Below are positions 5,576-33,850 of a DNA stretch of 33,850 nt, piece by piece; position 1 is the stretch's first letter, and each line of letters begins with the position of its first letter. Origin of the DNA: Clostridiales bacterium GWE2_32_10. GTDB taxonomy: Bacteria > Bacillota > Clostridia > Lachnospirales > UBA12420. The position numbers and the translations under genes are program-made. Under the pieces are notes generated by a model. It saw only the letters and a list, made by a program, of their open reading frames with translations. It ran no database searches and had not been told where the DNA came from. The stretch covers positions 1 through 33,850 of the forward strand of contig MGOW01000081.1 of NCBI GenBank assembly GCA_001797255.1. The letters run 5' to 3'.

Positions 5576-5604
5576 TTGACAATGCTAACTTTAATTAGTA
5601 TAAT
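5576..5604 (+). promoter_or_regulatory. Consensus sigma-A promoter before the ATPase gene
   Basis: TTGACA (5576-5581) and TATAAT (5599-5604) are separated by exactly 17 bases, a perfect match to the sigma-A consensus. The predicted start of transcription is near 5611, about 34 bases before the ATG of the ATPase gene. The -10 box lies inside a perfect palindrome, so the promoter is probably controlled. Confidence 0.85.
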
Positions 5605-8426: not shown

Positions 8427-11400
8427 ATGGAAAAGATTAAAAACAAACAGGTATTTAGGTTTAAGATGGTAATTGGAATGTTACTGATGATATTAATTTC
8501 TATGATTACATTATCTGATAATGTATATGCAGAGAGTGATTATAGGAACATGCCAGCGAACGGGCTTACAAAGCCTATAGCGAGGTTAAAAATTTATAAT
8601 GATAATGGTTCATTACTGGTAACATCAAATGATGGAAATAGTACTTCGAGTATACCAGTTATATACGTAGATAAGGGAGAAAAATTAGAATTTAAATGTG
8701 ATAATTCTAGGTCAGTATGTCATACTGACTATGAAACTATAGTTCAATGGGATTTTCAATTATTTCGTGATGGAAGATCAACAAGTGTATCTAAAGCTCA
8801 AAAAGCACCTGAGTCAATATATTATCCATTTGATACTACAGGAACATATAATGCATATTTATGTGTACGCGCTGATACCAATGGTTCTTGGAGTTCTGTG
8901 TCTAGTGATTATAATACAAGGACAAATTATATGGGACTTTGGTCTCAAAATGGACAATATACAGTAAAAACCCCTAGTACGGGGATTTGGTGGTATTATA
9001 CTCAAGTGAAAATAATATGTGAGGAAGCTCAGGATGAGTTAGAAAGTATAGAGGTAACACCAGATAATCAATATATTGATGGATTTAATAAAAAAGGTAA
9101 CAAGTTAAAAATAACAGCTACGTATGAAAATGGGGAAGAAGATACAATATCTTTTTCAGATTCGGATGTAGATGTAGAAATAGATGATGAGGATAAGGTT
9201 AAATATGTGGATTCAAGTGGATATCCTGTAAGTGGAGATGAAGAAGGGACGGCTAGAATAACTGTATACTATAAAGAAAACGGGATAGAAAAATCTGATA
9301 CAGTTAGAGTGAATGTTAGTGATGACAAAGAATTAAGTAAAATAGAGTTAATAGACAGTAATAATCAAACAATAAAAGGGTTTGGAAATGTAGGAAAAAG
9401 AATAACTGTGAAAGCCACATATTCAAATGGAGATACTAAAACAATAGATAATTCATTATATTTTTATAACTATGATAAAAGTATAGTAAGTAGCGTAAGT
9501 TCATCTGGGTATCCTAAAAGCGCTAATAAAGCTGGTTCTACGGATATGAAAGTATCATATACTGAAAATGGTATAACAAGAGATACTCAAATTAAAATAA
9601 TAGTCGAAACAGATAATGTAGCTGCAACATTATCTAGAATAGATGTAACACCAAATTATCAAGAAATAATTGGATTTGGAATAACCGGTCAACGATTAAA
9701 GGTGATGGCTACATATTCAAGTGGAGATCCAAAGGATGTAACTGACTCAGCATATTTTGTTAGTAGGGATAATAATGTAGCAGATATAACATCGAATAAA
9801 TATGTAAAGAGTGGAAATACTGATAAAACAGTAATCATAGATATTTCATATACTGAGGGTGGTATAACAAAATCCACTACAGCAAGTGTTAAAGTTATAG
9901 ATAATATACAGACTCAAACGAAATCACTAAGTAAAATAGTAGTTTCGCCTACCGAGAAAACAATCTATGGTCTAGATAAAAATTGGTGTTCTGTGACAGT
10001 AACAGCTTATTATACAGACAATAGTACCCCAACTGATGTAACAACGAATTCTAATACTATATATACAAGCCAAAATGATAGTAGAGCCTTCGTTAGCAAT
10101 GGTAGGTTAAGAAGTGGTAGTCAAGAAGGAAATACAAATATTGAAGTGAAATATACAGAAAATGGTATATCTTCGTATGAGTCTATATATGTTAAAGTTA
10201 TAGATGACTCAGAGGATGAGAATATACCGGAAGAAGATGTTGAGTTAGAAAAAATAGAAATAGTACCTGATGATAAACAAACAATCGAGGGTTTTGGAGA
10301 ATATGGGGATACATTAAAGGTAAAAGCATATTATACAGATGGTAGCACAAATTATGTAACGGAAGATTGTGATTTTGAATCAGATGATGACGATATAGCA
10401 TATGTGACAAGTTCTTATAAAGTAAAAAGTGGAGATGAAGATGGAACAGTAGATATTACGGCAAATTACAAGGAGAATGGTATTACAAAGCAAGACTCTA
10501 TAAAAGTTAAAGTAATAGAAGAAGATGAAGAAGATGACAGTGACAATGATTTTAATTCAAGGGTTTCTGGATTAAGAGTAGAATTACAAAATAAAGATAA
10601 TAAAGTTAAGTATTTGGAAAATACAGAAATTACTTATTATGTAGATTACTATAATGCCACTAATAGAGAACAAGAAGATGTAGATATTGTAGTAACATTT
10701 CCGAAAACAATGAGTGTAGTAGATGCAGACGATGGCAATGAATCAACTACTAAAATAACATGGAATTTAGAAACAATTGATCCATGGGATACGGGAAGAT
10801 TTAAAATTGTATTAAAATGCAAAGATGCATCAGGGACAAAGGAAGTAGAAATTGTAGCTAGATTAAATCAAGATGGTGACGAAGAAGATGAATCAGAAGT
10901 CAAAAATCTTATATACGAAAAAAGTGCTTCTGGTTATCACAATTTATATATGAAGGGTTATCCAGATGGAACATTTAGACCAGAGAATAAAATAACCAGA
11001 CAAGAATTAGCAGTTGCATTAGTAAGATTGTTTGATTTAAATTATGTGGGAGACAATTATTATAATGGTTATAGTGTATATAATGATGTAACACCAGAGA
11101 AATGTTGGGGATATAATGAGATTATGATTGCTACAAACGTGGGATTATTTTCAGGATATGCAGATGGAACATTTAGACCAGAAGCACCAATAACTAAAGC
11201 TGAATTTTTAGCTATAATAGCAAAGAGGATGGAAGTAGCAAGCAAAGAAACACTAACACTTAATTTTCCTGAAATCAAAAATTATTGGGCATCAAATGAA
11301 ATTGAACAACTGTATAGACTAAAACTAATATTAAACAGTGATCTAGTAACAAAGAACATAACTCAATCAATAACAAGAGCAGAAGTTGTCAATATATTAA

Positions 11401-11549
11401 ATAGAGTAAATTATAGAGGGCCCCTTAAAAGTGGAAGAGTCTACTTTAGAGACGTTTCATCATATTATTGGGCATACAGTGATATACAAGAAGCAGCGAT
11501 AGAACATGGTTATATAATAAATATATCTGGGGAAGAAAGCGAAAGATAG
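8427..11549 (+). CDS. Secreted Ig-like repeat protein with C-terminal SLH domains
   Basis: This is a 1040-residue surface protein, probably held to secondary cell-wall polymer by its SLH domains. A basic N-terminus and hydrophobic core (IGMLLMILISMITL) with VYA at 33-35 form a signal peptide. Residues ~40-200 are unassigned and rich in Trp/Tyr. Five related Ig-like modules of ~90-100 residues follow (about 205-700). Each starts like LxxIxVxPxxQxIxGFG and contains KVxATYxxG and a YTENGI motif near its end. An acidic Asp/Glu linker leads into a DUF11-like beta domain (about 710-810). At the C-terminus, YMKGYPDGTFRPENKITRQE and GYADGTFRPEAPITKAEF are clear SLH modules, with a weaker third (QSITRAEVVNILNRV). 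AGGAGGG precedes ATG 8427. It has its own promoter and terminator, so it is monocistronic. Confidence 0.88.
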   Translation: MEKIKNKQVFRFKMVIGMLLMILISMITLSDNVYAESDYRNMPANGLTKPIARLKIYNDNGSLLVTSNDGNSTSSIPVIYVDKGEKLEFKCDNSRSVCHTDYETIVQWDFQLFRDGRSTSVSKAQKAPESIYYPFDTTGTYNAYLCVRADTNGSWSSVSSDYNTRTNYMGLWSQNGQYTVKTPSTGIWWYYTQVKIICEEAQDELESIEVTPDNQYIDGFNKKGNKLKITATYENGEEDTISFSDSDVDVEIDDEDKVKYVDSSGYPVSGDEEGTARITVYYKENGIEKSDTVRVNVSDDKELSKIELIDSNNQTIKGFGNVGKRITVKATYSNGDTKTIDNSLYFYNYDKSIVSSVSSSGYPKSANKAGSTDMKVSYTENGITRDTQIKIIVETDNVAATLSRIDVTPNYQEIIGFGITGQRLKVMATYSSGDPKDVTDSAYFVSRDNNVADITSNKYVKSGNTDKTVIIDISYTEGGITKSTTASVKVIDNIQTQTKSLSKIVVSPTEKTIYGLDKNWCSVTVTAYYTDNSTPTDVTTNSNTIYTSQNDSRAFVSNGRLRSGSQEGNTNIEVKYTENGISSYESIYVKVIDDSEDENIPEEDVELEKIEIVPDDKQTIEGFGEYGDTLKVKAYYTDGSTNYVTEDCDFESDDDDIAYVTSSYKVKSGDEDGTVDITANYKENGITKQDSIKVKVIEEDEEDDSDNDFNSRVSGLRVELQNKDNKVKYLENTEITYYVDYYNATNREQEDVDIVVTFPKTMSVVDADDGNESTTKITWNLETIDPWDTGRFKIVLKCKDASGTKEVEIVARLNQDGDEEDESEVKNLIYEKSASGYHNLYMKGYPDGTFRPENKITRQELAVALVRLFDLNYVGDNYYNGYSVYNDVTPEKCWGYNEIMIATNVGLFSGYADGTFRPEAPITKAEFLAIIAKRMEVASKETLTLNFPEIKNYWASNEIEQLYRLKLILNSDLVTKNITQSITRAEVVNILNRVNYRGPLKSGRVYFRDVSSYYWAYSDIQEAAIEHGYIINISGEESER

Positions 11550-11557
11550 ATGATTAT

Positions 11558-11600
11558 AAAACAAGCAAAGAAATTTGCTTGTTTATTTATTTGTTTTTTT
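11558..11600 (+). terminator. Rho-independent terminator after the SLH/Ig gene
   Basis: AAACAAGCAAA (11559-11569) pairs with TTTGCTTGTTT (11574-11584), an 11-bp perfect stem with a 4-base loop. T-rich sequence ending in seven Ts follows (to 11600). It starts nine bases after the stop codon. Confidence 0.88.
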
Positions 11601-11602
11601 GC

Positions 11603-11631
11603 TTGACACAATGCAATAAAAACATTATAAT
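11603..11631 (+). promoter_or_regulatory. Perfect consensus promoter of the three-receiver operon
   Basis: TTGACA (11603-11608) and TATAAT (11626-11631) are 17 bases apart, identical to the sigma-A consensus. Downstream there is an inverted repeat (ATTTAAAG 11647-11654, CTTTAAAT 11657-11664) and another TTGACA at 11684-11689 with no good -10 box at normal spacing. This suggests strong transcription that may be modulated in the 110-base leader. Confidence 0.85.
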
Positions 11632-11749
11632 TTATTGTAAAGTTAGATTTAAAGTTCTTTAAATAAAAAAATAAAAATTTTACTTGACAAAATGACGAAA
11701 AAGTGAAAAAATAGTAAGTAATAAAAATATATGCAGGGGGATGATTGAG

Positions 11750-12991
11750 TTGAAGATATTAATTGTTGATGATACAAAGCTTAACTTGGCTTTTGCTGAG
11801 AGTATTATAAAAAAGTATAATCTAGATGTTGAAATGGTTTTTGCTGAAAATGGGATGGTAGCTCTAGAAGCACTTAGAAAACATACGATAAATATAATAA
11901 TACTTGATATTGTAATGCCAGGGATGACTGGAATAGAAGTATTGAAAAAAATAAGAAGTGATCAGGCTAATGACAATATAAGGATTTTGATGTTTACATC
12001 TATAAACGACAAGAAGATACTTAGAGAGTGTTTAGAGAGTGGAGCAACTGACTATATAAATAAGCCTATAGACGAGGTTGAATTTGTTTCTAGGATAAAA
12101 GTTGCAATAAGAGAGTGTAAATATCAGACTAAAATAAAAGATACTCAATATTTTATAGTACAGAAAGAAAAGCTTATTGCGATAGGTGAGCTTGCTGCAG
12201 GTATTGCACATGAAATAAATAATCCTGTAGGATACGTTCAAAGTAATCTACAGACACTCAAGAAATATGCTGAAAATCTAAAAAGTATTTCAGAAGAATA
12301 CGGGAATTTTTCAAAAGAACTTTTAAGAAATGTTGAAGATAAAGATATTTTAACTAGAATTCAAAGTATAGATGATCAAAAGAAACATATGAAATATGAT
12401 TTTATAGTAAATGATTTAGGAGAGTTATTCAAAGAGTCTTTTAGTGGGCTTGACAGAGTAACTGAAATAGTGCAATCTCTTAAAAATTTTGCACGGCAAG
12501 ATAAAATCGATTTAATAAAAGCTGAGGACATAACTCAAATAATGGATGAAACGCTTATAATAGCAAAAAATGAATCAAAGTATTATGTAAATATTATCAA
12601 GGAATATCAAGAAGGCTTGCCAGATGTGGAATGTATTAGAAATCAAATAGGGCAAGTATTTTTGAATATAATAGTAAATGCAATACAAGCAATAAAAGGT
12701 CAGGGAAAGGCTGAGAAGGGGAATATATACATCAAAATATACAGTGATAATATTAATATTATGTGTTCTATACGAGATGATGGTCCTGGGATTCCAGATA
12801 GTATGAAAAGTAGTATATTTGACCCGTTTTTTACCACAAAAGATGTTGGTGAGGGAACGGGGCTTGGACTTAGTATATCACATGACATTATTGTAAATAA
12901 GCATAAGGGTGAGATTATTTTAAATACTCAAATAGGTCAGGGGACGGAATTTGTTATTAAACTACCGATAAAACAAAAATTTGATGTATAA
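11750..12991 (+). CDS. Receiver domain fused to soluble histidine kinase
   Basis: This is a cytoplasmic signalling protein with no membrane segment. From the TTG start it has 413 residues. The N-terminal receiver (1-120) has phospho-acceptor D53 (ILDIVMPGMTG), T83 and K105 (YINKPID). A short linker leads to the kinase: H-box GELAAGIAHEINNP (His 154), N-box QVFLNIIVNAIQAI, G1 DDGPGIP, F-box DPFFTTK and G2 GEGTGLGLSI, so catalysis looks intact. TTG 11750 gives the typical receiver beginning MKILIVDD and sits nine bases after GGGGG. The in-frame ATG at 11741 directly abuts that GGGGG, leaving no room for ribosome binding. Having the receiver ahead of the kinase suggests the kinase is controlled by phosphorylation or relays phosphate to the next two proteins. 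Confidence 0.9.
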   Translation: MKILIVDDTKLNLAFAESIIKKYNLDVEMVFAENGMVALEALRKHTINIIILDIVMPGMTGIEVLKKIRSDQANDNIRILMFTSINDKKILRECLESGATDYINKPIDEVEFVSRIKVAIRECKYQTKIKDTQYFIVQKEKLIAIGELAAGIAHEINNPVGYVQSNLQTLKKYAENLKSISEEYGNFSKELLRNVEDKDILTRIQSIDDQKKHMKYDFIVNDLGELFKESFSGLDRVTEIVQSLKNFARQDKIDLIKAEDITQIMDETLIIAKNESKYYVNIIKEYQEGLPDVECIRNQIGQVFLNIIVNAIQAIKGQGKAEKGNIYIKIYSDNINIMCSIRDDGPGIPDSMKSSIFDPFFTTKDVGEGTGLGLSISHDIIVNKHKGEIILNTQIGQGTEFVIKLPIKQKFDV

Positions 12992-13005
12992 AGGAAGTGG
13001 TAATT

Positions 13006-14184
13006 ATGGAAAATAAAAAAATACTTTTTGTAGACGATGAAGTAGACATATTAAGATCGATAGAAAGGGCTTTTTTAGAAGAAGATTTTGAAATTTATTT
13101 TACAAAATCAGTTGATGAGGCAATAGTTATTTTAGATACAAAGGATATTGATATTTTAGTATCTGATATGCGTATGCCTATAAAAGATGGAGTTGAGTTA
13201 TTTAAATACGCGAAAAAAAACTACCCAAGTATTCCTAGGATAGCGCTAAGTGCGTATACGGATGAAGGTCAAGTATACAGGTTGCTCGATAAAAACCTTA
13301 TAAAGCTTTATATATTAAAACCGTGGAAAAACTCGGAGGTAGTTGATATTATAAAAAAAGCTATTGCGCTTGAAGAAAAGTTAAATGATAAGCGAATGCT
13401 TACTATAATAAATAATATAGAATCACTACCTACATTACCAGATATATATATAAAAGTTAATAATATGATTGAGACAGGAAGTGGTCTAAATGATATAGTG
13501 GAGGAAGTTTCGCGTGACCAATCAATTTCAAGTAGAATACTTAGAATAGCAAACTCAGGTTTTTACGGGTTAAAAACGGATTCTATAGCTCAAGCTGTAT
13601 CATATTTAGGAAGTGATATACTAAAAAATATAATTTTAACAACTCAAATATTTAAGCTTAGTAGTTCGGATAGAATGTATTATGAAATGATATGGGGGCA
13701 TACTGAAATTATAAGTGAAAACATGGTAAAGTTTGTTAAAAATTATTTAGGTGAAAAGCCTCTTCCTATATATTTATCCGCGGCTTTATTTCATGATATT
13801 GGCATGGTTATCTTGATAAAAGAATTTAAAAATAAGTATAAACAAATATTAAGAACAGTACAAGAAGGCAATGGTGAAGGAAAACTCTTAGAACTAGAAA
13901 AGGAAAACTTCGGGATGACACATCAAGAGTTAGGTGGACTATTACTTAATTGGTGGGAGTTTCCTTATCATATAATAGAATGTTTGATGTACCACCATTC
14001 GCCAAATAATGAAGAAATAATAAATAAGGATCTAGTAAAAATGTTATATTTATGTGATGTATATTCATGGAAAAATATATTAAAAAACAAAAAAAGGAAA
14101 ATAGAGATTGATCCAAAAGTACTTAAAGATATGAATTTAACTGTCGAGAAATGTGATGAGATATTTGGTGCTTCGACAAAATAG
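13006..14184 (+). CDS. Response regulator with HDOD output domain
   Basis: The receiver (1-120) has D54 in VSDMRMPIKDG and K105 in the LYILKPWK motif, which is typical of receivers attached to HD-type outputs. An HDOD domain follows (about 132-330), starting at NNIESLPTLPDIYIKV, with QSISSRILRIANSGFYGL and FHDIGMVIL. HDOD domains are HD-related but generally lack nucleotide hydrolase activity and act in regulatory assembly. A further ~60-residue helical tail completes the 393 residues. ATG 13006 is chosen over GTG 12997 because AGGAAGTGG (12992-13000) then acts as the ribosome binding site. It starts 14 bases after the preceding kinase gene and is clearly co-transcribed. No DNA-binding domain is present. 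Confidence 0.9.
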   Translation: MENKKILFVDDEVDILRSIERAFLEEDFEIYFTKSVDEAIVILDTKDIDILVSDMRMPIKDGVELFKYAKKNYPSIPRIALSAYTDEGQVYRLLDKNLIKLYILKPWKNSEVVDIIKKAIALEEKLNDKRMLTIINNIESLPTLPDIYIKVNNMIETGSGLNDIVEEVSRDQSISSRILRIANSGFYGLKTDSIAQAVSYLGSDILKNIILTTQIFKLSSSDRMYYEMIWGHTEIISENMVKFVKNYLGEKPLPIYLSAALFHDIGMVILIKEFKNKYKQILRTVQEGNGEGKLLELEKENFGMTHQELGGLLLNWWEFPYHIIECLMYHHSPNNEEIINKDLVKMLYLCDVYSWKNILKNKKRKIEIDPKVLKDMNLTVEKCDEIFGASTK

Positions 14185-14195
14185 GAGAGATGAAA

Positions 14196-15224
14196 ATGAG
14201 CCAAGAAACCATGAAGGTTTTATTTGTAGATGATGAAGAAAATATACTAAGCTCTTTGAGGAGGGCTATGATTGACGAGCCTTATATATGTTATTTTGCT
14301 ATTTCTGGAGCAGAGGCACTCAAAATAATGGCAAAAGAACGGATACAAATAATTATATCTGATATGAAGATGCCTAATATGACTGGGCTTGAACTTATGA
14401 AAAATATAAAGGAAAACTATCCGGATACTGTTAAAATAATACTTTCGGGTTATGCTCAAATAACGCAAGTTATTGCAACTGTAAATCAGGTTGATTTATA
14501 TAAATTCTTACTTAAACCGTGGAAAAATGAGGAATTGTATAGTACACTAAGTGAAGCAGTAAGTTATGTAAAATTTATAGAAGAGAGAAATAAGGAAATA
14601 TTAGAGCTGCAAAATAAAACTCTTATATACCAAAAACTTATGAATATAAAACAGGTAAGTGAAAGTAATAATAATGAAAATATTAGAAACATTAAAATAA
14701 TTTCAGCTAAATTTTTTAAAAATTTTAATTTTGTATTTTTAGTGCAAAGCGGAGAAAAGCTTACAAGTACAGTTAATAGATTTCAAAAACTTTATGAGAT
14801 ATATATAGAAAGCCTACCTACTATGAATTCTAATTATAAGATTGATATGTTGATAGATGCGTTAAAAAATGATTCTAGGATAAGTTTTAAATTTAATATA
14901 AATATAAATGATGAGAAATATATAGGAAATATAAGTTTAATAACTAGTCTTATAGAGGAAATGGTAGGGTATATATTTAATCTGATTGGAAAAAGACTGA
15001 TACAAGTTAATTTGATTATGATTGATAACGGGTTTCAACTACAATTTAGCATTCCGCTAGGGCTTATAATGAAAACAGATCAAAATGTATCAGCAGAGGT
15101 AAAAATACTTCCTAGATATTTAGATTTTTTAAAGGAACTACTAAAATTATCTAATATTGATTTAAGTATGTCGAATAATGAAAGTGAACTACAGATAGTA
15201 TTGGCTAGTGAAAATGTAATATAA
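14196..15224 (+). CDS. Response regulator with unassigned C-terminal domain (possible degenerate HATPase)
   Basis: A receiver (1-122) carries D56 in IISDMKMPNMTG and K107 in YKFLLKPWK, closely matching the HDOD protein before it, so the two receivers are probably paralogues. A charged coiled segment follows (about 125-165). The last ~180 residues match no family I recognise. Their order resembles a histidine-kinase ATPase domain without the key residues: helix SLIEEMVGYIFNLIG where the N-box would be, MIDNGFQLQFSIPLG where the G1 loop would be, and a final RYLDFLKELLKLSN helix before a beta hairpin. That assignment is inference. ATG 14196 is 8 bases after AGGAG; ATG 14190 is only two bases away and is rejected. 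It lies 11 bases downstream of the HDOD gene. Confidence 0.75.
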   Translation: MSQETMKVLFVDDEENILSSLRRAMIDEPYICYFAISGAEALKIMAKERIQIIISDMKMPNMTGLELMKNIKENYPDTVKIILSGYAQITQVIATVNQVDLYKFLLKPWKNEELYSTLSEAVSYVKFIEERNKEILELQNKTLIYQKLMNIKQVSESNNNENIRNIKIISAKFFKNFNFVFLVQSGEKLTSTVNRFQKLYEIYIESLPTMNSNYKIDMLIDALKNDSRISFKFNININDEKYIGNISLITSLIEEMVGYIFNLIGKRLIQVNLIMIDNGFQLQFSIPLGLIMKTDQNVSAEVKILPRYLDFLKELLKLSNIDLSMSNNESELQIVLASENVI

Positions 15225-15253: not shown

Positions 15254-16579
15254 ATGCGGATGTATGATATTATACAAAAGAAGAGAGATGGGTATGAATT
15301 ATCAGATGATGAAATAAAATATGTAGTGGAGGGATATACAGAAGGAAGTATTCCAGATTATCAGGTGTCGGCACTTCTTATGGCTATATATTTTAAGAAG
15401 ATGACAACACGAGAAACTACATATTTGACTATGGCTATGGCAGGTAGTGGAGATAATCTTGACTTGTCTTGTATACAGGGGATGAAGGTCGATAAACATA
15501 GTAGTGGGGGTGTCGGTGATAAAACGACTTTGGTTGTTGCACCTTTGGTCGCTGCCTGTGGACTTCCTGTAGCCAAGATGGCTGGCAGAGGATTAGGACA
15601 TACGGGAGGTACGATAGACAAACTTGAGTCTTTTCCTGGGTTTAATGTTAAACTTGATTTTAATAAATTTATAGATAATGTAAATAAATATAAGATAGCA
15701 CTCGTTTCACAAACAGCTAATCTAACTCCAGCAGATAAGAAAATATACGCACTTAGAGATGTTACTGCCACGGTTAGCAATAGTTCGTTAATTGCTAGCA
15801 GTATAATGAGTAAGAAAATAGCCTCTGGAGCGGATGCCATAGTGCTTGATGTAAAAGTTGGTAGTGGTGCGTTTATGAAAGAAATAGATGATGCTATAAA
15901 TTTAGCTGATGAGATGGTACAAATTGGTAATCAAGTAGGGCGTAATACTATAGCTATTGTTTCAAATATGGATCAACCACTTGGTGTAGCTGTAGGGAAT
16001 ACATTAGAGGTGATTGAAGCTATTAATACGTTGAAGTGTAAAGGACCTAAAGACCTTGAAAGCTTGTGTATAGAAATTGCAGCATATATGCTTATAGCAG
16101 GAAAGATGACGAGTACTATTGCAGAGGCTAGAAATAAGGTAATTGCGAAGCTTAAAAGTGGTGAAGGCTTGATAAAATTAAGAGAACTAGTAGGTTCACA
16201 AGGCGGTGACGAAAGCTTTGTAGATAATCCCGAAAAGTTCGAAATAGCAAAGATAAGAAAGCAGGTAAAGTTAGATAAAATAGGATATGTGCATAAAATG
16301 GATACAGAGGCTATTGGCAAGGCTGCTATGATACTAGGTGCAGGAAGGGAAACAAAGTATAGCGAAATAGACCTTTCTGTAGGGCTTATGGTACATAAGA
16401 AAGTAGGAGACTTGATTCTAGAAAATGAGGTTGTTGTTACTATATACGGAAATGATGATGATAAAATAAAACAAGCAGAAGATATAATAAAAGCTTCTTA
16501 TACAGTAAGTAATGTCGAAAAGTATAAAGAAAAACTAATAAGGGCTATAGTTATGAAGGATGAAGTAGAAAGATATTAG
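15254..16579 (+). CDS. pdp: Pyrimidine-nucleoside phosphorylase
   Basis: This enzyme cleaves thymidine, uridine and deoxyuridine with phosphate to give the free base and (deoxy)ribose-1-phosphate, in pyrimidine salvage. The 441 residues match the family length. They show VDKHSSGGVGDKTTLVVAPL (phosphate and nucleoside binding), KMAGRGLGHTGGTIDKLES (the phosphorylase signature), SNSSLIASSIMSKKIA and DVKVGSGAFMK. ATG 15254 is preferred to TTG 15248 because GGAGGT (15241-15246) then has a 7-base spacing. It begins 29 bases after the third receiver gene with no terminator between, so it may share that transcript, though a functional link is not evident. Confidence 0.95.
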   Translation: MRMYDIIQKKRDGYELSDDEIKYVVEGYTEGSIPDYQVSALLMAIYFKKMTTRETTYLTMAMAGSGDNLDLSCIQGMKVDKHSSGGVGDKTTLVVAPLVAACGLPVAKMAGRGLGHTGGTIDKLESFPGFNVKLDFNKFIDNVNKYKIALVSQTANLTPADKKIYALRDVTATVSNSSLIASSIMSKKIASGADAIVLDVKVGSGAFMKEIDDAINLADEMVQIGNQVGRNTIAIVSNMDQPLGVAVGNTLEVIEAINTLKCKGPKDLESLCIEIAAYMLIAGKMTSTIAEARNKVIAKLKSGEGLIKLRELVGSQGGDESFVDNPEKFEIAKIRKQVKLDKIGYVHKMDTEAIGKAAMILGAGRETKYSEIDLSVGLMVHKKVGDLILENEVVVTIYGNDDDKIKQAEDIIKASYTVSNVEKYKEKLIRAIVMKDEVERY

Positions 16580-16620: not shown

Positions 16621-16830
16621 ATGAAAAGAGAAATTATATTCTTAATTGAGGAATCAGTTGATGGAGGTTATGAAGCGAAGGCATTAGGCGAATCTATATA
16701 TACTCAAGCAGAATCATATGAACAAATTAAAGAAAATATAAAAGACGCTGTCATGTGTCATTTTGAAGAAGATAGTAGACCATTATTTATTAGATATCAT
16801 TTTGTGAAAGATGAGGTAATAGCTATATGA
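16621..16830 (+). CDS. hicB: HicB-like antitoxin (small)
   Basis: A 69-residue protein with the partial RNase H-like HicB fold. It begins with a strand (KREIIFLIEES), then GGYEAKALGESIYTQAESYE, matching the GYxAxxxxLG pattern and the following helix EQIKENIKDAVMCHF. A C-terminal DNA-binding extension, found in many HicB proteins, is absent, so autoregulation by this protein alone is doubtful. ATG 16621 follows AGGAGGT by seven bases (TTG 16615 overlaps the site). Its stop overlaps the hicA start as ATGA. The antitoxin-first order is a common arrangement for this small class. Confidence 0.78.
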   Translation: MKREIIFLIEESVDGGYEAKALGESIYTQAESYEQIKENIKDAVMCHFEEDSRPLFIRYHFVKDEVIAI

Positions 16831-17075
16831 ATCTACCAAGGGATATTGATTTTTCAGAACTTATTAAAAAACTTAAAAAAATTGGATATATGATAGATAG
16901 GCAAAAAGGAAGTCATATTAGACTGAAAACAGAAATAAATGGGGAGCATCACATAACAGTACCAGCACCAGCACATGATCCTATAAAAATAGGTACACTT
17001 AATAATATAATATTAGATGTATCAGAACATATGGGGATTAGTAAAAAAGAAATGATTTATAAATTATTTGATTGA
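16827..17075 (+). CDS. hicA: HicA-like mRNA interferase toxin
   Basis: HicA toxins are small double-stranded-RNA-binding-fold RNases that cut mRNA on or off the ribosome. This 82-residue protein shows the family layout: SELIKKLKKIGYMIDRQKGSHIRL, with the catalytic histidine in GSH (H30), then HHITVPAPAHDPIKIGTLNNIILDV, where VP...H...I..GTL is the conserved second half. The start overlaps hicB by four bases, so translation is coupled. The pair is 41 bases after pdp and 22 bases before uppP, placing a toxin-antitoxin module inside a run of housekeeping genes. Confidence 0.87.
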   Translation: MNLPRDIDFSELIKKLKKIGYMIDRQKGSHIRLKTEINGEHHITVPAPAHDPIKIGTLNNIILDVSEHMGISKKEMIYKLFD

Positions 17076-24700: not shown

Positions 24701-27700
24701 ATGGAGTCAAAGAGAATTTGTGCATTTTTATTGTCTGCCACGATGCTGATTACAAGTACAGTCAGTGTAAATGCAGATAATAAAGTGAATGCGACTAATG
24801 TTGAAACAGCTAACGTAGTTAGTGACATATCTGATCATTGGGCAAAAGCCGAGCTTTCGAAATGGTTAGATAAAGCCTTGATTAAAGGCTATGAAGACGA
24901 CACTGTAAAGCCAAACAACAGTATTACTAGAGCCGAATTTTTTGCTTTGGTAAACAGGGTATTTAATTTTAAAGATAGTGCAAGCATAAGCTTCGATGAT
25001 GTAAAATCAGAAGATTGGTATTATGATATTATATCTAAAGCTGTTGCAGCAGGGTATACGAAAGGGTACAGCCAAAGTGATGGTTATTCGGGACATGTAG
25101 TATTGCCTAATAATAATATTACGAGATCCGAAGCAGCGACAATACTCGCAAGAACATTTGAACTTGTAGCAACAAGTCAAACGTCGCTAAATAATTTTAC
25201 AGATAACAGCAGTATACCTGACTACGCTAAAGCTAACGTAGCAGCGTTACTAGAGAAAAGTTACATAAAAGGATATGAAGATAAGACGTTTAAAGCAAGT
25301 AATAACATTACACGTGCAGAGGCAGTCAAGATGATTGACAATGTAATGGGAGAGTTATATAGTACAGAGGGGGAATACACAGGAACATATAAAAATGTAA
25401 CTGTTAATACTTCGGATGTAACATTAAAAAACGAGATAATAACAGGTGATTTGTACCTAACACAAGGTATAGGTGATGGTGATATAACTCTTGACGGTGT
25501 AACTGTAACAGGAGACACAGTTATAAAAGGTGGAGGAATAAATACAATCACGATAAAAAATTCTAAGTTTAAGAAAATTAAATTAAATAAACAAAACAGT
25601 AATGTAAGACTTCTTTTTGATAAAGCATCACAGGCTGATGAGGTAAATCTTGAGTCTGGTGGAACTATTGAAAGGGAAACAGGAAGTAATTTAGCTATGA
25701 ATATAGTAGTAGCTAATGGAGTTACAGAAAATGCAGGTGTAACACTTAGGGGTGCGTTTACTAATGTAGATGTACAAGGAGGAGCACGAATTGTAACAGA
25801 TGCTACTACTGTAATAAATAGTATGACTATTCAAAGTGGAGCAAATGGAACAAGCATTACAGGAGGTGGAAATATAACAACTCTTCAAAACAGTGCAACT
25901 GGTGTAACAGCAGGTGGTACGAGTCTAGGGCAAGGGACTTCTAGAGTAAATGGAGGTGTAGCGACAACGACGACAACTACAACAACAACTTCTAGTAGCG
26001 GAGGCTCTGGTGGTGGCGGAGGTGGTGGAAGTAACGATGATGATGATACACCAACAGATACTACAAAGCCTACAATGACAAATATGACACTTTCTACAAG
26101 TAATACATCAGCAGAAATAACATTTAGCGAAGATGTATACACAAACAATAATGAAACAGGAGTATTAACAATTGCAGACTTTGATGTAAGTATATCGGGT
26201 GGTACAGCTACACTCGACGGGTATACAGTAACTCATACAGCAGGAGCAGAAACAGCAACGATAACACTTACTATAGATGGAATAGCTGATGGTGATGAAA
26301 CATTAACTATAACACCAGCAAGTGCAGCTAGCATATACGATGCAGCAGGTAATGAAATGCTTGATACACAGTCAAGAACAGCAGATTTAACCGAGAAAGA
26401 AGTACCAGAGTTTGTTAGTGCTAGTGTATCCGATGCAACACCAAACAAGCTAGTAGTAGTGTTTAATGAAGCTATGACATTAGACGATACAGATGGACTA
26501 AGTCTAGGTGGAGTAGCTGTAGATATAGAAGGTGTGACTGGTTCAGGTAGTCAAATCCTTACATTTACACTTAGTAGAAATATAGTGGCAGGGGAGGGAT
26601 TTACTTTATCATATGATGCATCTTTAGGAAGCATAGAAGATGAAGCAGGAAATGCATTAGATGATTTTACAGATGAGGCAGTTACTAATAATGTGGGTGA
26701 TGATTCAGCACCAACACTACAAACTGTTACAGTAGAAGAAGCAAATCCAAATAAAGTAGTACTTACACTTAGTGAGGATGTACAATTAACTGACGGAACA
26801 GGATTTGTAATTACAGTAGAAGATGAAGAAGTGACTGTAACAAATGTTGCGTTAAATGCTGATGAAATTACGTTTACAATAGATACTGTTGTAGCTAATT
26901 TAGATGATGTAACTATTCTTTATGATGGTACAGGAAACGTACGAGATTTAGCAGAAATACCAAATCCTTTAGAAGTTATAGCCGAAACAGAAGTTGATAA
27001 TAATGTAGATAATCACAGACCAGAAATAACTTTAGAGGGAGATAATCCTACAGTTATTTATGCGGATGGGATAGCATATATTGATGAAGGTGCTACTGCA
27101 GATGATAACGAAGATGGAGATATAGAGGATATAGATGTGGATGCATCAGAAGTAGATACAGATTCAGTTGGTACTTATACAGTTACTTATACAGTAACAG
27201 ATAGTGATGGAGTAGTAGCAACAAAATCAAGAACAGTTGAAGTACATGCAACTCAAGTTGCAACACTAAACGTATTATCGGTAACGGCTACACAAGTTGC
27301 TGTATCATTTCCGGAGCTTATAGGAGCAACTGAAATAGAGATATTGCAAAGTGAAGATGGTGGTGACTATGAACTGTCTAATATACTAGAAGATGAAATC
27401 GGGGATGATGATATAGCGGTAACCGTTATAAATCTAATTCCAAACACAGAATATACATTTAAAATAATTGTAACTGGTGGAAAATATCACTATGATGGAG
27501 TTCATGATTCTACTGTAGATGCAACTACAGCGGTAGATGATGATGTAGTATACTCAAGTGTAGGGCTTGACGTAGCAGTACATGAAGCAATAGCAACATT
27601 TACAACGGATGTGACATTGAATGCAAGTTCAGATCCAAATGTTATAAATGTGGATATAGTAAATGCAGATACAGATGAGGTTGTGGCAAGCTTTGAACCA

Positions 27701-28183
27701 ACAGAGGATCAGACAGATTTTGAAGTACCAAATATAGAAAACGGACATTACTATATAGAGATTTTAGATATAGGTGAGGATATTGACTATAGTGGTAGAA
27801 CGAATACTGTATTAGTAGAAGGTCTTGTAGCAGATTTTGATGCACCAGAAATAACATTTAGCCCATTAAATGCGGCAATAGATGTAGCAATTGATTCAGA
27901 TATAACTATTACATTTGATGAAGCAGTTAGAAACTTAGATGATAGTGAGGTAGTAGATGGTGACCTAGCAGCAATGTTAACATTAAAAGAAACAGATGCA
28001 GCAGGTGCTGATGTAGCATTTACAGCAATAATAGATGTTACAAAACAAATAATAACAATAACACCAAATGCTAATTTGACTAACAATCAAGTATATTATG
28101 TAGCAATAGGTGATGACTTAGAAGATAGTTTAGATAATGCAATAGAAGAAACAAGCATAACATTTACAACAGTAGCAGAATAA
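24701..28183 (+). CDS. Large surface protein with N-terminal SLH domains and Ig-like repeats
   Basis: A 1160-residue exported protein, probably part of or attached to the S-layer. The signal peptide is MESKRICAFLLSATMLITST to VNA at about residue 25. Three SLH modules follow (about 40-215): HWAKAELSKWLDKALIKGYE, a middle one with VVLPNNNITRSEAATIL, and YIKGYEDKTFKASNNITRAE. Residues ~225-400 are repetitive beta strands (VTLKNEIITGDLYLTQGIGD; GNITTLQNSATGV) that may form a beta-helix. A Thr/Ser/Gly/Asp linker (about 423-455) separates this from Ig-like domains, a DUF5011-like module (about 775-850), an FN3-like module and a final Big_5-like module (about 1050-1155, SDITITFDEAVRNL, NQVYYVAIGDDLEDS). 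GGGGAGG lies 13 bases before the ATG, a little far. The next gene starts 33 bases later. Confidence 0.87.
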   Translation: MESKRICAFLLSATMLITSTVSVNADNKVNATNVETANVVSDISDHWAKAELSKWLDKALIKGYEDDTVKPNNSITRAEFFALVNRVFNFKDSASISFDDVKSEDWYYDIISKAVAAGYTKGYSQSDGYSGHVVLPNNNITRSEAATILARTFELVATSQTSLNNFTDNSSIPDYAKANVAALLEKSYIKGYEDKTFKASNNITRAEAVKMIDNVMGELYSTEGEYTGTYKNVTVNTSDVTLKNEIITGDLYLTQGIGDGDITLDGVTVTGDTVIKGGGINTITIKNSKFKKIKLNKQNSNVRLLFDKASQADEVNLESGGTIERETGSNLAMNIVVANGVTENAGVTLRGAFTNVDVQGGARIVTDATTVINSMTIQSGANGTSITGGGNITTLQNSATGVTAGGTSLGQGTSRVNGGVATTTTTTTTTSSSGGSGGGGGGGSNDDDDTPTDTTKPTMTNMTLSTSNTSAEITFSEDVYTNNNETGVLTIADFDVSISGGTATLDGYTVTHTAGAETATITLTIDGIADGDETLTITPASAASIYDAAGNEMLDTQSRTADLTEKEVPEFVSASVSDATPNKLVVVFNEAMTLDDTDGLSLGGVAVDIEGVTGSGSQILTFTLSRNIVAGEGFTLSYDASLGSIEDEAGNALDDFTDEAVTNNVGDDSAPTLQTVTVEEANPNKVVLTLSEDVQLTDGTGFVITVEDEEVTVTNVALNADEITFTIDTVVANLDDVTILYDGTGNVRDLAEIPNPLEVIAETEVDNNVDNHRPEITLEGDNPTVIYADGIAYIDEGATADDNEDGDIEDIDVDASEVDTDSVGTYTVTYTVTDSDGVVATKSRTVEVHATQVATLNVLSVTATQVAVSFPELIGATEIEILQSEDGGDYELSNILEDEIGDDDIAVTVINLIPNTEYTFKIIVTGGKYHYDGVHDSTVDATTAVDDDVVYSSVGLDVAVHEAIATFTTDVTLNASSDPNVINVDIVNADTDEVVASFEPTEDQTDFEVPNIENGHYYIEILDIGEDIDYSGRTNTVLVEGLVADFDAPEITFSPLNAAIDVAIDSDITITFDEAVRNLDDSEVVDGDLAAMLTLKETDAAGADVAFTAIIDVTKQIITITPNANLTNNQVYYVAIGDDLEDSLDNAIEETSITFTTVAE

Positions 28184-28216: not shown

Positions 28217-31200
28217 ATGAGTAACATATTAAAAAAATTTAAATCTACGATATCGTTAATATTAGCATTAGTAATGATTGTGACTAATGTTAACATATCT
28301 AGTGCGGCTGTATATAACACAATAACGCTTTCAACAAGTGCCTATTATGTTAATGAAGCTACAGGAACAATGAATGTTGTAATAAATAGAAGTAATCCAA
28401 ATGGAACATCAACGGTAGGGATTAACTTTGCAAATGGGACAGCGATAAAAACTAATGATTATACTGTAGATGTTAATAATACAGGTAAATCATATGGAAC
28501 GTTGACATTTACATCAGGTCAAGAGCAAAAAATAGTAACAGTGGGTATAGTAAATAATGATATAGTAAACCCAACAAAAACAATAGCAGTTTCTTTATAT
28601 GCACCAAATAATGCAGTGTATGGGGCATATAAAGCTTCAACAATATATATAGTAAACGATGATATAGACGATAGTGATTCACCAGTAATTACAGGTGTAA
28701 GCAATGGTGGAATGTATAATGAAACAGTAACACCAAATGCAACAGATGTAGGAAGTGGTATATCAATATACACACTAACTAAAAATGGTGCAGTTGTATC
28801 AGGATATGCATTAGGGACTCCGGTAACTGATAGTGGTAATTATGTACTTTCAGTAACAGATAATAATGGTAACCCACCAGCTACAGCTAGTTTTACTATA
28901 GATAAGGTAGCACCTACAGTTACAATAGTACCACCAGATGCAAGAACAAATGTAGCAGTAGGAACAAATATTGTAGCAACATTTAGTGAAGCAGTAAGAA
29001 ATATAGATGATTCTGCTTTAACGAATGATAATGTAGATGGATTGATTACATTAGAAAAGGTTGTAGAGGGTGGAAATGTAGCAGCACCTTTTGATGCAAC
29101 TATAAGTGAAAATAAGATAATAACAGTAAATCCAAGTACTGATTTAGAAAGAGGAGCAAGCTACAAATTAGTAGTGATAGCTAATAAATTTGAAGATAGT
29201 GCAAATAATGCTAATTTAGAAAAATCAGTAACATTTACAACAGAGGCAGCAAGTGTAAACAATAACCTTAGTAATTTGACAGTAAATGGTCAAACAGTAA
29301 CAGGCTTTAGCCCAACTGTTACATCATATAATGTTACATTACCATATGGTACAGAAGCTATACCAACAGTAGCCGGAACAAAAAGTGATGCTAATGCAAC
29401 AATGGTTGTAACACAAGCATTAAGTGTTACAGGAACAGCAACAGTAGAGGTTACATCAGAAAGTGGAGTAGCGAAAACTTATACTCTAACATTCAGTGTA
29501 GCAGAAAACACACAAAATTCAATAACTGCATTTAGCATACCAGGTCAAATTGGAGAATCAGAGATTGATGAAGTAAATCATACAATAGATATAGAATACA
29601 ATGAAGCAAATGTAGCGCAATTAGCTACAAAGATTGCAACATTTACTTTATCACCAGATGCTACAGCTAATATTGCAGAGGTAGCACAAGAATCAGGAGT
29701 AACAGAGAATAATTTCACAAATCCAGTTACATATACTGTAGTAGCACAGAATGAAACTGCTCAAAACTGGATAGTAACAGTAAATCTTGTGGATATAACA
29801 GCACCAGACGCACCAGGTATAGCACCAGGTACAGGAACATATTCAGAAGCTCAGACAGTAACAATAACACCAGCAGAGGAAGGATTAACTACTTATTACA
29901 CAACAGATGGTAGTGTTCCAGATGATACAGACACAGAATATACAGCACCAATAACAGTAGATGGAAACAATGCTACACCAGTTACATTAAAAGTAATATC
30001 TTATGATGATGAGGGAAATGCAAGTAGCGTAGCAACAGCAACATATACATTTGATAAAGATGGACCAGTAGCACCAATATTAAATGTGGCTACAGGTACT
30101 TATAATGTAGAACAAAGTGTAACAGTAACTATAGATGAAACAGCAGAAGCTACGTATTATACATTAGATGAAACTATACCAGATGATACAGATACGCCAT
30201 ATACTGCACCAATAGCAATAGATGCAGTTCATGGAGCAAGTGTGACTTTAACAGTTGCGTCATATGATGCAGCAGGAAACAGAAGCACGGTAGCAGCAGT
30301 ATATACATTTGACAAAGAAGTAGAAGCAGAGATCAACTATGATATAACAGCAGTTACAAGTCAACCAGTTACTGCGACAATATCAGCTTTAGAAGGTGAA
30401 GGGGAATTAACAGTAACAAATAACGGTGGAAGTGCATCATATGAATTCAATGCAAATGGAACATTTGGATTTGAAGTTACAGACGATGCAGGAAATACTG
30501 ACACATTTACAGCAACAGTAGACTGGATAGACGGTGATGCACCAACTACACCAGCAGTAAGTGTACCAGAAGGGACATACAATTCATCTCAAAGTGTAAC
30601 ATTAACGGTAGATGAAGGAACAGAAACATATTATACAGTAGATGGAACTGAACCATCAGATGTAAATGGAGCAGAATATACAGGAGCAATAACAATAAAT
30701 GGAGCAGATGGAGTAACAGTAATACTTAAAGCCATATCTTATGATACTGCAGATAATGCAAGTAACATAATGGTAAAAACTTATGTATTTGACAAAGTAG
30801 CTCCAAATGTAGTAGCACCTATAGTAGGTGATGGAGTAGCTGATGTAACTATACTAAGCGGAAATAGCGAATCAGTAAACTTTAGCGAAGCAATAAATAA
30901 CAAAGCTGCAGTAGAAGGAATAATAACAGCAGCAAAAACAGGAGCAGGAACACCAAACTATGGCTGGGATGCACAAAATGATACACTCACAATAGCAGCT
31001 AATGGTGGAGATGTAACATTTGCAGCTGACGTAGTGGTAACACTTGCAGATGCATATGGAAATACAAGAGCAGATGTAACAATAATAGATTCATCAGAAG
31101 ATGAAGGGCAGCCATCATTAACTATAACACCAGATAAAACAAGCCCAACAAACGAAAGTCCTATAACATATACATTTGAATTTGATGAGAATGTGACAGG

Positions 31201-33850
31201 ATTTGTAGTAGGAGATATAACAGTAGTAAATGGAACTAAAGGAGCATTTGTACCTGTAGATGGAGACACATACACATTAGTAGTGACACCAGATGCAGAA
31301 GGAAATATAGTGGTAAGTGTAGCAGGTGGAGTATGTACTGATGTTGCACTAAACGGAAACATAGCAGCAGGACCAAATACTGTGGTATATGATAGCTTAG
31401 CACCATTAGCACCAACAGCAAACGTAGCAACAGGAACATATAACTCAGCACAAAATGTAACAATAACACCAGCTGGGGATGCAGCAACAACTTACTATAC
31501 ATTAGATGGAAGTGATCCAACAAGTGCAAGTACAGCTTTGGCTAACCCAATAGCAGTAGATGCAGCAGATGGAGTAACAATAACATTAAAAGCAGTAAGC
31601 TATGACGCAGCAGGAAATATCGGAGCGATACTAACAAGAGTATACACATTCGATAAATCAGGACCATTAGCACCAACAGCAAACGTAGCAACAGGAACAT
31701 ACAACTCAGCACAAAGTGTAACAATAACACCAGCTGGGGACGCAGCAACAACTTACTATACATTAGATGGAAGTGATCCAACAAGTGCAAGTACAGCTTT
31801 GGCTAACCCAATAGCAGTAGATGCAGCAGATGGAGTAGCAAGAACATTAAAAGTAGTAAGCTATGACGTATCAGGAAATATCGGAGCGATACTAACAAGA
31901 GTATACACATTCGACAAAGCTGTACCAGTAATATCACTTACTGGGGCAAATCCTCAAACAGTAGAAGCAAAAACAGCTTATGCTGAATTAGGAGCAACAT
32001 CTACAGAAGGATTAGATGCAAGTATAGTAATAAATGCAACAGCGGTAAATGCAAACTTGATAGGAAGTTATAGTGTAACATATAATGTAACAGACCTAGC
32101 AGGAAATGCAGCTGTACAAGTAACAAGAACAGTAAATGTTTCAGATTCAACAATACCAGTAATAACAAGAACTGGAAATGCTGAAGTAACTGTAGAAAAG
32201 GGTGACGCATACGTAGATGCAGGAGCGACAGCTACTGATAACTATGACGGCGACAGAACAGCCAACATAGTAGTGGGTGGAGATGCTGTAAATGTAAATA
32301 CAGTAGGAGACTATGTGATAACATACAACGTAGCCGATACAAGCGCAAATCCAGCAGTACAAGTAACAAGAACAGTGCATGTAGTAGACACAACAGCACC
32401 GACAGTTACAAATGTAACTTCAGCAGAAGTTAATGGAGCATATCCAACAGATGCTGTAGTTACAGTACAAGTAGTGTTTAGTGAAAATGTAACAGTAACA
32501 GGAACACCTACATTACAACTTGAAGCAGGAGCAACAGATAGAAATGCAACTTATTCTGCAGGAACAGGAACAAATACATTAACATTCTCATATACAGTTG
32601 TGGCAGGAGATACAAGTGCAGATCTTGAATATACAGGAACTGGAGCATTGGCTCTAGCTGGTGGTACTATAAAAGACGCTGCAAATAATGCCGCAGTACT
32701 TACATTACCAGCGATAGGTGGTGGAAATTCACTTTCAGATAATAAAGACTTAGTTATAGCTGGGGTGACACCACAAGTAGCAAATGTAACGTCAAGCACA
32801 GCAAACGGAAGCTATAACGAAGGTGATGCAGTAAGTATTCAAGTAGTATTCAACATTCCAGTAGTAGTTACAGGAACACCACAATTAGCTCTTAACACAG
32901 GTGACACTGTAAACTATGTAAGTGGAACAGGAACAACTACATTGACATTTACTTACACAGTAGGAGCAGGAGACACAAGTGCTGATTTAGACTACTCAGC
33001 AACTGATTCTCTAACTTTAAACGGAGGAACAATCCAAGACCAATTAGGTCAAGATGCTAATAGAACTTTAGCAGCACCAGGTGCAGCAGGAAGTTTAGGA
33101 GCTAATAAAGCGATAGTGGTGGATACGACAGCACCGACAGCATTGTTAGCAGCACCAAGTGATACAACAGTAAAAGCAAGTGATAGTGTAACAATAGATG
33201 TAGATTACACAGGAGCAGACACAATAACATTAGCAGCAGGAAATGTAACAGTAAATACAACTGGTGGAGATGCAAGTGCATCAGTAGCAAGTGTAGCAGA
33301 TGTAGATGCTGATACAAAGAGAATAACAATAGACACATTCACAGGAAATGGAACAATAACAGTAAGTATAGCAGCAGGAACAGCGACTGATGCAGCAGGA
33401 AACAGTGCATTAGCACCAGCAGCAAGTGCTGCTATAACAGTAGATACAACAGCACCAGTAGCAGTACTAGTAGCACCAAGTGATACAACAGTAAAAGCAA
33501 GTGATAGTGTAACAATAGATGTAGACTATACAGGTGCAACTGGAATTACACTTGCAGCAGGAAATGTAACAGTAAATACAGTTACAGGAGATGCAAGTGC
33601 ATCGGTAGTTAGTGTAACAGATGTAGATGGAGATACAAAGAGAATAACAATAGATACATTTACAGGAAATGGAACAATAACAGTAAGTATAGCAGCAGGA
33701 ACAGCAAGTGATGATGCAGGAAACACAGCATTAGCACCAGCAGCAAGTGCAGTTATAACTGTTGATGGAGTAGCACCAACAGTAACAGCATTAACAATAG
33801 CAAGTAACAATGCAACAGTAACAAAAGCAGTAACAGGAAACACAATAACA
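28217..33850 (+). CDS. Giant multidomain surface protein (3' end outside window)
   Basis: The frame stays open for 1878 codons from ATG 28217 to the window end. AGGAGAGG precedes the ATG. The signal peptide has a hydrophobic core ([14 protein letters not shown]) and cleaves near SSA (30). Domains in order: Calx-beta-like (about 33-150, [19 protein letters not shown]); Ig-like; Big_5-like (about 236-345); cadherin-like beta sandwich (about 350-430, [20 protein letters not shown]); a DUF5018-like segment; several chitobiase-C-like modules with YYTxDGSxP; two DUF5011-like modules (32,000-32,390); two GTPxLxLxxG modules; then a tandem [16 protein letters not shown] module. No SLH domain has appeared yet, so anchoring may be at the missing C-terminus. 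Third codon positions are mostly A (gca, aca, gta). Likely an adhesin or S-layer-associated protein. Confidence 0.88.
31402..31923 (+). repeat. Two near-identical 261-bp tandem units in the giant gene
   Basis: Unit 1 (31402-31662) and unit 2 (31663-31923) each encode 87 residues of the chitobiase-C-like module, beginning near [17 protein letters not shown] and including [20 protein letters not shown]. They differ at few positions, including synonymous ones (TAT/TAC) and a small cluster near 31839-31872. This points to recent duplication or gene conversion. Confidence 0.92.
33152..33780 (+). repeat. Two 321-bp tandem units near the window end
   Basis: The sequence GCACCAAGTGATACAACAGT recurs at 33152 and 33473, a period of 321 bp (107 codons). 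Each unit encodes [20 protein letters not shown], then [20 protein letters not shown] and AAGTA...DAAGN-like ends. The array may continue past the window. Confidence 0.88.

Follow-up and report, generated by a model that had tools for sequence, protein, structure and literature searches.

A conserved Clostridia signalling module that combines a probable receiver-controlled histidine kinase with REC-HDOD and a receiver protein predicted to carry a degenerate kinase core

Three adjacent genes of the uncultivated Clostridiales bacterium GWE2_32_10 form a signalling module that is real and conserved in Clostridia. They encode a soluble histidine kinase with an N-terminal receiver (ORF1), a receiver fused to an HDOD domain (ORF2, REC-HDOD) and a receiver followed by a domain, here called X, that is predicted to be a degenerate histidine-kinase core (ORF3, REC-X). 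The genes lie in the window, i.e. the whole stretch of 33,850 nucleotides analysed here, which corresponds to contig C81 of an assembly of 1.87 Mb that is 92% complete. As the best overall explanation we favor, at about even chances, a receiver-controlled soluble kinase with two co-encoded output receivers, of which REC-X would act as a binding module. What is new here is the REC-X family; the nearest system, LvrB-LvrC of Leptospira, is already known.

All three genes are encoded on the forward strand. ORF1 (11750-12991, 413 aa) has the order REC-DHp-CA of the LvrB-type soluble kinases, ORF2 starts with the ATG at 13006 (13006-14184, 392 aa), and ORF3 (14196-15224, 342 aa) comprises a receiver at about residues 1-125, a coiled coil and domain X. 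The gaps of 14 bases between ORF1 and ORF2 and 11 bases between ORF2 and ORF3 agree with the first-pass annotation of this DNA, which had described three consecutive receiver genes separated by 11-14 bases. The start of ORF3 is most likely at 14196 rather than 14190, since the AGGAG motif is about 8 nt away from the former and 2 nt from the latter. With the starts at 11750, 13006 and 14196, the previously proposed acceptor residues D53, D54 and D56 and the kinase histidine H154 are numbered correctly, and each of the three receivers possesses the DD pair, the acceptor Asp, the T/S and the K residues. In line with the suggestion that none of the proteins has a DNA-binding output, Pfam detects no DNA-binding domain in ORF1, ORF2 or ORF3.

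The upstream gene for a surface protein with SLH/Big domains is closed by a terminator-like hairpin (11559-11584, forward strand), followed on the same strand by the perfect sigma-70-type promoter TTGACA-17-TATAAT at 11603-11631, about 119 nt 5' of ORF1, which had been noticed before. This promoter is beyond chance for the local sequence composition (0.0003 perfect sites are expected per intergenic region of that size, by a first-order estimate). It is absent from the shorter intergenic regions of both sister genomes, Clostridiales bacterium GWD2_32_19 (G001) and UBA12072 (G002). A second promoter-like element on the forward strand (TTGACA-17-AAAAAT with TG before the -10 box, 11684-11712) is conserved in both sisters and is what they have in common with the window. 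Another perfect TTGACA-TATAAT match occurs at position 5576 of the window. The leader RNA matches no known family in Rfam, and the idea of a riboswitch or another leader RNA was dropped on this ground. Downstream, a gene for pyrimidine-nucleoside phosphorylase (about 15254-16579) begins about 30 nt past ORF3; given this spacing and the fact that no terminator was found between the two genes, they may be co-transcribed. This neighbor is not kept in the sister genomes, where a pseudouridine-synthase-like gene is found instead. A gene for a HicA-like toxin (16827-17075) lies between the phosphorylase gene and an UppP-like gene. The window also encodes three large putative surface proteins (8427-11549, 24701-28183 and 28217-33850), two of them with SLH domains; the last is repetitive, exceeds 1878 aa and continues beyond the window end. 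In each of the three species of the genus, a surface protein similar to the product of 8427-11549 is encoded next to the REC-kinase.

The kinase is the best defined of the three proteins. In Pfam it matches Response_reg (2e-25, residues 6-119), HisKA (2e-6, 149-184) and HATPase_c (3e-23, 301-411), and all its catalytic boxes are intact (HEINNP with H154, NIIVNA at 306, DDGPG at 343, FDPFFT, GEGTG at 367), in line with the earlier description of a receiver placed in front of an intact soluble kinase. The arrangement of the receiver, a helical linker and the DHp-CA core with no other sensor domain, together with the intact acceptor Asp and the complete kinase boxes, is that of LvrB, a Leptospira kinase for which phosphorylation of the N-terminal receiver, the entry point for an upstream kinase, was shown to be the switch (PMC13269768). 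The LvrB structure (8vc9) is among the best solved relatives of ORF1 by sequence (6e-23), and ORF1 matches the NCBIfam LvrB family NF047466 with 1e-32 and 113.6 bits, below the curated equivalog cutoff of 500 bits. By analogy, ORF1 looks like a kinase of the LvrB type that is controlled by its receiver and takes its input from upstream.

The gene set recurs well beyond the genus. In the two sister species a similar SLH/Big surface protein gene is followed by the REC-kinase (75-79% identical to ORF1) and REC-X, with no HDOD gene in between. The cluster in other families was traced through homologues of REC-HDOD and the REC-kinase. Two genomes (G097 and G138) have the order FIST, soluble kinase, REC-kinase, REC-HDOD, REC-X; G144 has REC-kinase, REC-X, REC-HDOD; G195 has REC-kinase, REC-HDOD and REC-X, the last with a stop codon after its receiver at the contig end. 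An initial search, in which X was the only query, gave the genus and a single distant genome and made X appear nearly genus-specific; this picture was overturned by a search seeded with the relatives, and a profile of the relatives' X domains revealed REC-X in two genomes outside the order, G603 and G649, the latter with the order REC-HDGYP, REC-kinase, REC-HDOD, REC-X, FIST. A further genome, the 69% complete assembly G004, has REC-X alone. Altogether, the REC-kinase lies within two genes of REC-X in 8 of the 10 REC-X genomes, all three genes occur together in six and the window's order is found in five, so that the homologues are linked rather than, as the first-pass annotation had allowed for, usually unlinked. 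Members of at least four families, from two orders, carry the set. A close REC-HDOD is encoded in seven of 295 genomes of the order, and each of these seven has REC-X too (p 2e-13, uncorrected for kinship and corresponding to about four independent lineages).

A FIST gene is present in three of the clusters (G097, G138 and G649) and a separate soluble kinase in two of these, and by analogy a FIST protein, probably a sensor of a small molecule, is the likely input in the relatives. The cluster FIST proteins match both FIST Pfam domains, and their scores of 73, 29 and 59 bits against NosP (NF041558) lie below its cutoff of 450 bits. No FIST-kinase pair was found in the window genome, 92% of which is available; its only FIST protein is a distant one encoded beside GGDEF-EAL. 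We found no report of a Clostridia cluster of HDOD, FIST and kinase genes in the part of the literature that was covered.

The relationships of the receivers argue against a closed phosphorelay with one kinase and three acceptors, as had been proposed for this locus. In a tree of 35 receivers, the sequences group according to the three genes, with one change sufficing for each group (0 of 500 shuffles scored as low), with support of 99/97 for the kinase receivers, 94/85 for the X receivers and 81/80 for the HDOD receivers. The receivers of ORF2 and ORF3 fall into the HDOD and X groups, respectively, so that the gene set was most likely inherited rather than assembled locally. These two receivers are indeed paralogous, as suggested earlier, in the sense of sister subfamilies whose split predates the divergence of the orders; a recent duplication of ORF2 into ORF3 is ruled out by the tree. 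The alpha1 helix of a receiver usually sets the specificity of its interaction with the kinase. The pattern IL-x-S-[IL]-x-R is common to alpha1 of ORF2 and ORF3, whereas ORF1 has NL-x-x-A, suggesting that the two output receivers share one kinase and that the ORF1 receiver answers to another. Since the kinase receiver and the two output receivers belong to different clades and differ in their alpha1 face, a closed relay is unlikely; the LvrB arrangement, with input from an upstream kinase, and the FIST sensor and soluble kinase encoded in clusters of the relatives point the same way.

ORF2 matches Response_reg (2e-17, 64 bits) and HDOD (3e-37, 128.6 bits), both above the Pfam cutoffs, and forms a long, early branch of the HDOD receiver group. 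In the two sister genomes the REC-HDOD genes sit away from the REC-kinase and REC-X, and three of the four adjoin other kinases, of the same core type as ORF1; the kinase is either a membrane sensor kinase accompanied by a substrate-binding protein, or a soluble kinase accompanied by a FIST protein. This displacement speaks against the explanation favored here and suggests that REC-HDOD may serve other kinases, additionally or mainly. The window genome itself encodes a separate system on contig C83 (L017, 6012-10258), composed of a REC-HDOD, a periplasmic substrate-binding lipoprotein and a membrane sensor kinase with a core of the same type as ORF1; ORF2, with its early-branching position, is not a recent copy of this REC-HDOD gene.

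The first-pass annotation had described ORF3 as a receiver joined to an unknown part. The receiver stands (Response_reg, 2e-21, the only Pfam match in the protein), and for the remainder, the approximately 220 residues of X, the label can be replaced by that of a predicted degenerate histidine-kinase core, i.e. a pseudokinase. AlphaFold models, built on five sequences only, have pLDDT 74 for the full-length protein and pLDDT 76 with pTM 0.75 for X alone, and predict a coiled coil followed by a pair of long helices and by strands and helices in the order E-H-E-E-H-E-E-H-E-E. In Foldseek comparisons with the PDB, the top match of the full REC-X model is LvrB (E 1e-12). For X alone, the 50 best matches listed are DHp-CA cores of histidine kinases and one phytochrome, including ZraS (2e-6), HK853, CpxA, RetS and WalK (prob 1.00), and the resemblance to DHp-CA cores extends along the whole of X; the TM-scores are 0.4-0.5, perhaps kept low by hinged subdomains. 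The predicted kinase-like fold has lost the features of an active kinase. The X domain of the window contains no histidine at all, its N-box Asn is replaced and the G1 and G2 motifs are missing, and the ten X sequences have no histidine in common and have all lost the N-box Asn and the G-boxes.

It could be argued that the resemblance to kinases is a modelling artefact, that X is a novel output domain with no relation to them, and that the locus is an ordinary branched two-component system with one kinase and two independent effectors. The small number of sequences behind the models would be consistent with this, as would the sequence comparisons: profile comparison links X to no kinase core (hhalign probability <2%), the Pfam scan finds HATPase_c in none of the X domains, and the X profile retrieves only a chance match from the PDB sequences. 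On the other hand, the kinase-like order of helices and strands was obtained also when X was modelled without its receiver, and the 50 best structural matches are kinase cores almost without exception. We therefore regard an ordinary branched system as very improbable.

A different objection would be that X hardly matters, and that REC-X works as a sink or connector for phosphate, which its receiver drains from ORF1, with X left as a dimerization relic. The receiver of REC-X is far more conserved than X, the version of the C83-type system in G002 adds a receiver that stands alone but belongs to the REC-X clade (L038, 7357-7791), and in G195 (L048, 1-700) an in-frame stop, either genuine or due to an error of sequencing, separates the receiver from X. 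However, the length of X is kept in nine complete genes while its sequence diverges, and hhalign aligns X of the window genus with that of G603 end to end (96%, 1.6e-9). These two observations indicate that X is under constraint, and make a mere sink, in our opinion, quite unlikely. In addition, hhalign connects X of the G138 group with that of G603 (82%) and with that of G649 (94%). REC-X is duplicated in tandem in G001 (L014, 11077-12099 and 12185-13210), the second copy being more diverged (37% vs 43% identity to X of the window).

The main rival to our explanation is an LvrC-like role, in which REC-X, as a receiver-gated protein with a Bergerat fold, would sequester either a transcription factor, for instance a sigma factor, or some other partner until phosphorylation releases it, the kinase not being its target. 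LvrC, the proven phosphotransfer target of LvrB, is a receiver fused to a Bergerat-fold domain, as predicted here for ORF3, and has been proposed to be an anti-sigma factor (PMC13269768); its structure (9qih) aligns along the entire length of the REC-X model (Foldseek, E 1e-8), and the genome comes from a sporulating lineage, with SpoIIE and YabQ encoded in the window. However, LvrC is described as lacking a DHp and its crystals contained ADP, whereas the model of X shows a pair of DHp-like helices and its ATP-binding boxes are gone, so that despite the similarity of fold ORF3 does not qualify as an LvrC-type nucleotide-binding protein. Moreover, among the matches listed X alone resembles kinase cores in preference to anti-sigma structures, and the clusters of the relatives have no linked sigma factor gene. 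We consider the LvrC-like role rather unlikely.

According to the explanation we prefer, that of a receiver-controlled kinase with two output receivers, the wiring and output that we infer are as follows. An upstream kinase would phosphorylate the receiver of ORF1 as the input switch; in the relatives the upstream signal would come from the FIST-domain sensor, with the soluble kinase beside it in two genomes. By extrapolation from LvrB, the helix after the ORF1 receiver would then rearrange and allow the kinase core to autophosphorylate on H154, from which the phosphate would pass to D54 of REC-HDOD and D56 of REC-X. X would be unable to bind ATP in the usual way or to take phosphate on a DHp histidine. 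A kinase-shaped domain that lacks these features probably acts by protein binding, which in REC-X would be gated by phosphorylation; the simplest possibility is that X pairs with or clamps the kinase core of ORF1, providing feedback or gating, while REC-HDOD would be the second effector. It is possible, although the balance is somewhat against it, that REC-X represents an undescribed class of Clostridia response regulators, in which a dead histidine-kinase core, gated by the receiver and inherited together with REC-HDOD and a receiver-controlled kinase, controls that kinase or an effector by direct binding.

Several known systems resemble parts of this scenario. Compared to LvrA-LvrB-LvrC, where LvrB shares the architecture of ORF1 and passes its phosphate to LvrC (PMC13269768), the Clostridia cluster adds REC-HDOD and, in the relatives, FIST, and overall sequence identity is low. 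In the nitric oxide system NosP-NosK-NosR, a FIST sensor likewise sits beside a soluble kinase and a regulator with a receiver and an output domain, which is degenerate in NosR of B. pseudomallei (PMC12570481). NosR is also the best NCBIfam match for the receivers of ORF2 and ORF3. However, the Clostridia outputs are HDOD and X rather than HD-GYP, a receiver-controlled kinase is inserted, the cluster FIST proteins score far below the NosP cutoff, and a FIST-kinase pair is missing from the available part of the window genome. In the HnoK/HnoS-HnoB/HnoC/HnoD system of Shewanella, kinase input branches to several response regulators, and one regulator with a degenerate enzyme domain inhibits its partner by direct binding (PMC6335343); there, the dead domain is HD-GYP and not a kinase core, and a receiver-controlled kinase is absent. 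Spo0B and ChpT resemble the predicted X in combining a DHp with a degenerate CA-like domain (PMC3433190 for ChpT), but they keep the DHp histidine and relay phosphate, and the lack of a conserved histidine in X rules out a phosphotransferase of this type for ORF3. Finally, DivL, RetS and Osp, which have a kinase fold or resemble receivers, control another histidine kinase through binding instead of catalysis (PMC4211667, PMC6335343, PMC9430884). X would differ from them in being gated by its own N-terminal receiver, in being co-encoded with the kinase and in lacking a phospho-site in the DHp.

The full-length structures that explain how a receiver controls a kinase date from 2026 and come from one Leptospira system (PMC13269768). 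The Clostridia cluster provides a second, distant lineage in which a receiver-controlled kinase is found beside its presumed outputs, and because they sit together the question of the output is directly testable. If our prediction for X is true, this dead-kinase effector would join the few kinase folds that work as binding modules, such as DivL and RetS, and the kinase fold of REC-X would be a phosphorylation-switched adaptor under the control of its own receiver.
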